DNA from: Bdellovibrionales bacterium RIFCSPHIGHO2_01_FULL_40_29
GTDB taxonomy: Bacteria; Bdellovibrionota; Bdellovibrionia; Bdellovibrionales; Bdellovibrionaceae
Direction of reading: 5' to 3'
DNA length: 64,000 nt
Assembly: GCA_001771815.1 (NCBI GenBank)
Contig: MEPU01000007.1
Location: 186,001 to 250,000 of the forward strand
Each line of letters opens with the position of its first letter. Position 1 is the stretch's first letter. The notes under the pieces are model-generated. The model did no database searches and had not been told where the DNA came from. It saw nothing but the letters and a program-made list of their open reading frames with translations. The translations under genes were made by a program, and so were the position numbers. Positions 1,137-1,212 of this stretch are shown here, piece by piece.

Positions 1137-1206
1137 CCTAAGTATATGCTGGAGATAGGGTTCAGCGTTTCTACCGGGCACCGTAACAGGCCTGACTACA
1201 AAGGGG
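1137..1206 (+). promoter_or_regulatory. Purine (guanine-type) riboswitch aptamer in the leader of endonuclease I
   Basis: All conserved parts of the purine aptamer are visible in order. P1 left arm is 1137-1144; J1/2 TAT is 1145-1147; P2 is GCTGGA/TTCAGC (1148-1153/1161-1166) around the 7-base loop GATAGGG. J2/3 GTTTCTAC (1167-1174) is the invariant core. P3 is CGGGC/GCCTG (1175-1179/1190-1194, one G-T pair) with a loop carrying CCGTAAC. The GG of L2 can pair with the CC of L3 as in the known fold. J3/1 is ACTA with a C (base 1196) at the position-74 equivalent, the base that pairs with guanine; adenine riboswitches have U there. P1 right arm TACAAAGG (1197-1204) overlaps the Shine-Dalgarno AAAGGGG (1200-1206), so ligand binding should block translation of the gene at 1213. 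P1 has two A-A mismatches. Ligand could be guanine, or 2'-deoxyguanosine as in known variants. Confidence 0.85.
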
Positions 1207-1212
1207 ATTTTA

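Follow-up and report, generated by a model that had tools for sequence, protein, structure and literature searches.

Classical members of the guanine class of purine riboswitches regulate genes for the synthesis, salvage and transport of purines, in most cases through transcription termination, and in the purine riboswitch class ligand binding stabilises the P1 helix. Purine switches are also able to act as translational ON switches. Two classes of the fold recognise 2'-deoxyguanosine (2'-dG) and need a C at position 51, with 2'-dG-II having in addition a G21-C79 pair and a two-base insertion in J3/1, and replacing C51 with U weakens the binding of 2'-dG 18- to 83-fold (PMC8872408). In Mesoplasma florum, ribonucleotide reductase is under the control of the 2'-dG-I switch, in which C replaces U51 and L3 is shorter, and the 2'-dG-II switches of Bacteroidetes precede genes for endonuclease I and ComEC, both acting on DNA, as well as phospholipase D and receiver-domain genes; HNH, EndoU and PD-(D/E)XK-like targets are not reported there (PMC8872408).

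The locus described here lies in the window, a stretch of 64,000 nucleotides (positions 186,001 to 250,000 of contig MEPU01000007.1) from Bdellovibrionales bacterium RIFCSPHIGHO2_01_FULL_40_29, and brings together features of these systems. With the guanine class of the Bacillus subtilis xpt type (RF00167) it shares the three-way junction, the predicted L2-L3 contact, the pocket bases U22, U47, U51 and C74 and a J3/1 without insertion. Unlike the xpt type, the switches of this phylum almost always precede secreted nucleases and, at nearly all of these loci, hold the Shine-Dalgarno sequence within P1, and the window locus has no terminator. The fold and the endonuclease I target are common to 2'-dG-II, which, however, differs in C51, G21-C79 and the J3/1 insertion and belongs to another phylum. 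With 2'-dG-I the locus has in common a purine-fold aptamer at a non-classical gene, although the base at position 51, the length of L3 and the controlled gene set the two apart.

Results

When the whole 64 kb were scanned with cmscan, the Rfam Purine model (RF00167) matched positions 1120-1218 of the plus strand, on which all features given below are located, end to end and with flanks included, at 50.5 bits (E = 1.4e-5) against a gathering score of 37 bits; it is the sole Rfam match within the window. Compared on its own with Rfam, the region 1000-1400 yielded no further family up to E = 1, with Purine at the top of its clan. The first-pass annotation, made by reading the letters, had claimed that all blocks of a purine aptamer are readable, and L2, J2/3, L3 and C74 were each found at their place in the alignment. 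The 5' strand of P1, CCUAAGUA (1137-1144), whose positions covary across loci, faces the 3' strand at 1197-1204, with pairing of 1137-1139 to 1202-1204 and of 1142-1144 to 1197-1199; between these two blocks of three pairs lie the two A-A mismatches that had been noticed before, now located at 1141/1200 and 1140/1201. J1/2 is UAU (1145-1147), at the expected place, and is followed by the P2 hairpin (1148-1166, strands 1148-1153 and 1161-1166) with L2 GAUAGGG (1154-1160), by J2/3 GUUUCUAC (1167-1174) and by the P3 hairpin (1175-1194, strands 1175-1180 and 1189-1194) with L3 CCGUAACA (1181-1188). The kissing bases G37-C61 and G38-C60 are present as G1159 and G1160 with C1182 and C1181, from which the loop-loop contact is predicted.

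In standard numbering the pocket consists of U22 (1145), U47 (1168), U51 (1172) and the pair A21-U75 (1144/1197), all of guanine type. Position 74, which distinguishes the guanine subclass (C74) from the adenine class (U74), is a C at 1196 and would be the Watson-Crick partner of guanine. J3/1 carries no insertion, so that both J2/3 and J3/1 proved as canonical for guanine as initially described. Since the folding energy gains only modestly on shuffled sequences (z = -1.75), the case rests on the covariance model and on comparative data, by which the window RNA is classified as an ordinary guanine-class purine riboswitch aptamer, a type of aptamer already known.

The gene downstream (1213-2079, 288 aa) encodes an endonuclease I of the EndA/NucM family, as judged by its match to PF04231 (E = 5e-36; 124.9 bits against a cut-off of 25) and by its closest solved structures, which are endonuclease I entries such as PDB 1oup (E = 1.5e-13). 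The catalytic motifs EHTWPQ, DLHHLYP, RGNHMFG and IQGNRNPF are intact. By a crude rule the hydrophobic N-terminus resembles a signal peptide and export is predicted, in agreement with the earlier proposal that the target is a secreted endonuclease I and not a gene of purine synthesis or transport. A search of genome contigs with this protein returned two named loci only, both in Bdellovibrionales metagenome-assembled genomes. A histidine-kinase-like gene (25-1047) is located on the same strand immediately 5' of the switch. The source genome carries purH, genes of the purine nucleoside phosphorylase family and several phosphoribosyltransferases, and hence guanine should be obtainable from digested nucleic acid, with purines also made de novo; the phosphorylase and phosphoribosyltransferase homologues make guanine a plausible signal.

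RF00167 has exactly two matches in the whole source genome. Directly 3' of the second match (62.6 bits) lies a gene whose 163-aa product bears the HNH signature DHFIPLSIGGANSKTNLWPQ and has a signal-like N-terminus, and the complete purine riboswitch set of this genome thus consists of switches before two unrelated putatively secreted nucleases, EndA and HNH. Purine matches occur in 57 of the 66 genomes of the family and in 93 of the 369 genomes of the phylum. Across the phylum 149 loci, these two included, were examined by translation of the downstream gene and grouping by BLAST, Pfam and motif. The switch-bearing genes code for HNH nucleases (76), endonuclease I by Pfam (39), a secreted PD-(D/E)XK-like family of about 190 aa (11), DNase I-like proteins of the exonuclease/endonuclease/phosphatase family (6), EndoU RNases (2), DUF3465 proteins (4) and EamA transporters (11); a Pfam match or a catalytic motif identifies the product as a nuclease at 134 of the 149 loci, and classical purine genes (xpt, pbu, pur and others) are absent among them. 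In the HNH group, the signature DHxxPLxxGG...NLWP is present as a strict pattern in 66 of 76 proteins and with small deviations in the remaining ten, and the Pfam HNH models match weakly, below the curated cut-off. The switch precedes at least one of these genes for secreted proteins in 88 of the 92 genomes counted, and in the other four the sole switch precedes EamA. Control of nucleases is selective, as a switch is present at 39 of the 94 endonuclease I matches in the family.

The proteins of about 190 aa (L044, L046, L053, L058, L076, L098, L105, L133, L199, L214 and L216) possess conserved cysteines and invariant GELD and EVKCW motifs (alignment A2), which correspond to the D...ExK pattern of PD-(D/E)XK nucleases. 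No Pfam family matches them above cut-off, one member weakly matches the nuclease-related NERD domain, and a profile search against PDB sequences gave nothing credible. On the basis of these motifs they are a candidate new family of secreted PD-(D/E)XK-like nucleases. The DUF3465 proteins (L049, L061, L082 and L114) would be nuclease-related by association; at L061 the start codon is located about 190 nt 3' of the aptamer, beyond a second possible ribosome site. The aptamers at the EamA loci (L077, L111, L112, L119, L120, L132, L134, L138, L182, L208 and L211) have J2/3 GUCUCUAC, or GUAUCUAC in one case, the start codon 11-35 nt past the aptamer match in 10 of 11 and no Shine-Dalgarno sequence within P1. 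These loci have a different expression platform, and EamA is a candidate purine or nucleobase transporter. Enlarged hairpins were observed at L131, for P3, and in one genus, where the P2 hairpin of aptamers preceding EndA (L122, L123, L130 and L139) has 11-13 nt more.

With respect to the expression platform, the Shine-Dalgarno core GGGG of the window gene (1203-1206) is located 6 nt 5' of the AUG at 1213, and its first two G belong to the 3' strand of P1, as the first-pass annotation had stated. Closure over the window ribosome site is partial, because canonical P1 pairs take up just two of the four G and the helix is interrupted by the two A-A mismatches. Among the loci with a recognisable Shine-Dalgarno core, the first base of the core falls on aptamer positions 78-82, within the 3' strand of P1, at almost every nuclease locus: in 72 of 73 HNH, 39 of 39 EndA, 10 of 10 PD-(D/E)XK-like and 4 of 6 DNase I-like loci. 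It does so in 4 of 4 DUF3465 loci as well, and in 0 of 5 EamA loci. The distance from the aptamer to the start codon is nearly fixed over about 138 loci with unrelated genes. In 133 distinct nuclease leaders the P1 pairs 19-77, 18-78 and 17-79 are kept by AU, GC, CG, UA and GU combinations, beating 500 of 500 shuffles in which the strands were re-dealt between loci irrespective of kinship; the pairs 16-80 and 15-81, which face the Shine-Dalgarno sequence chiefly as C-G or U-G, are more weakly supported (25 and 76 of 500).

Since the ligand stabilises P1 and the Shine-Dalgarno sequence resides in its 3' strand, a translational OFF switch is predicted. The ligand-driven shut-off of translation anticipated from the window locus gains by the recurrence of this overlap across the phylum. 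A terminator-like site was not found between the aptamer and the window gene. Access to the Shine-Dalgarno sequence, as calculated with ViennaRNA for the free and the enforced aptamer, showed no consistent change, the ligand and the loop-loop contact being outside its model. An outer extension of P1 is conceivable in the window, where CUUCAUU (1123-1129) is predicted to pair with AAUGAAG (1212-1218), which contains the start codon, and a similar helix can form in the Bdellovibrio bacteriovorus leader. As a general rule, pairing of the leader with the start codon was rejected, because over all loci it performed no better than with swapped or shuffled leaders.

The opposite direction of control, in which guanine would activate synthesis of the nuclease as adenine does for the Vibrio vulnificus add gene, has to be weighed, as translational ON designs exist within the purine class and unconstrained folding of the RNA already buries the ribosome site. 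ON designs, however, free the ribosome site when P1 forms, but here the site lies inside the 3' strand of P1 at almost every nuclease locus, and no conserved helix that competes with P1 was found; we judge an ON switch to be unlikely.

The identity of the ligand was approached through the pocket. U22, U47, U51 and C74 are present in all 147 parsed loci, with the reservation that the parser required U51 and sought C74 by pattern and was not blind to them. The two of 149 loci that were not parsed, owing to a second copy of the motif upstream, show GUUUCUAC and C74 by eye. A21-U75 and a J3/1 without insertion are found in all parsed loci, and Purine wins the Rfam clan competition in all loci scanned. 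Beside the pocket the sequence varies in a way that may tune affinity: of the 147 parsed loci, 55 carry U in place of A at position 73, and 45, including the window locus, carry U at position 24.

The proposal that 2'-dG deserves consideration as a ligand was reasonable, as genes of the same kind are found behind one of the 2'-dG classes, and a natural ligand such as 2'-dG or another nucleoside would be released by DNA digestion itself. Control of a nuclease by a 2'-dG-II sensor has a precedent in Bacteroidetes (PMC8872408). Against 2'-dG-II, however, stand the U at 1172, the A21-U75 pair and the missing J3/1 insertion of the window, and the same U at 1172 speaks against 2'-dG-I, which has C there. 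As these features are common to all parsed loci and the change from C51 to U is accompanied by the loss in affinity for 2'-dG cited above (PMC8872408), assignment to a 2'-dG class is ruled out as the best reading and 2'-dG or another nucleoside as the natural ligand is very improbable. With C51, the J3/1 insertion and G21-C79 absent, guanine is the expected and, as far as the pocket can tell, the favoured ligand. That the aptamer is a relic or a chance similarity without regulatory role, as the mismatched P1 of the window and the folding z of only -1.75 might indicate, is scarcely credible in view of a score well over the cut-off, the constant pocket, the covariation in P1 and the near-fixed spacing to the start codons of unrelated genes.

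For B. bacteriovorus, three proteins of the endonuclease I family, Bd0934, Bd1244 and Bd3507, can be compared. The published bd1244 primer (PMC3593177) was found inside an endonuclease I gene of genome G003, whose three EndA genes agree in order and size with Bd0934, Bd1244 and Bd3507. Only one EndA of this genome bears a switch; this protein of 289 aa fits Bd3507, the fusion of which is of about 59 kDa (PMC7925074), in both position and size, and neither the EndA gene with the bd1244 primer nor the other switchless EndA gene is preceded by a purine match. Unlike the other two, Bd3507 of strain HD100 thus very probably bears the switch, an assignment that relies on order and size instead of an accession. 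Predator cells growing inside prey produce Bd3507 and secrete it into the bdelloplast, and the protein is not essential. Its transcript is still present when growth in prey ends (PMC7925074), which argues neither for nor against translational control. Two published accounts of B. bacteriovorus nucleases contain no mention of a riboswitch.

Discussion

Computation shows the aptamer with its pocket, the Shine-Dalgarno overlap and the association with nucleases, and we consider it highly probable that this guanine-class riboswitch turns off translation of a secreted endonuclease I and is part of a phylum-wide nuclease regulon. At low levels of guanine, or of a close analogue, for instance hypoxanthine, P1 would be weak, the ribosome would bind the GGGG core and the nuclease would be synthesised and exported. 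Occupation of the three-way junction by guanine would stabilise P1, hold the Shine-Dalgarno region in its 3' strand and block initiation. We infer the ligand, the direction of regulation and a feedback loop, which follows from these parts: products of the nuclease would give rise to guanine, which would turn the nuclease off. With at least five unrelated types of secreted nucleases under one kind of switch, extracellular digestion of nucleic acids is probably matched to the purine supply, which suggests that these bacteria turn nucleic-acid digestion down when guanine is plentiful.

The broader proposal, which we regard as likely, is that the phylum has redeployed the guanine riboswitch from purine metabolism to at least five unrelated kinds of secreted nucleases, all translationally shut off through P1 and the Shine-Dalgarno sequence, as a feedback on the digestion of prey or environmental nucleic acids, and it predicts a new PD-(D/E)XK-like family. 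A precedent for a purine sensor before a DNase gene, with a different ligand variant, is given by 2'-dG-II, which precedes endonuclease I and ComEC. As 2'-dG-II of Bacteroidetes also precedes endonuclease I, purine sensing of secreted nucleases seems to have arisen more than once. In the literature searched, which left most subscription papers outside so that a prior mention is possible, no paper was found to connect a purine or guanine riboswitch to Bdellovibrio or to nucleases in this manner, and the regulon with its expression platform, that is phylum-wide translational control of several unrelated secreted nucleases, appears undescribed.

If true, control by a riboswitch of the very enzymes that generate its ligand extracellularly would represent an unusual logic for the purine class. 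At the same time, candidate secreted nucleases can be named from the regulatory association, among them a family for which Pfam has no model. If the proposed control holds, the riboswitch would constitute a direct control point for the digestion of prey DNA and RNA by predatory bacteria.
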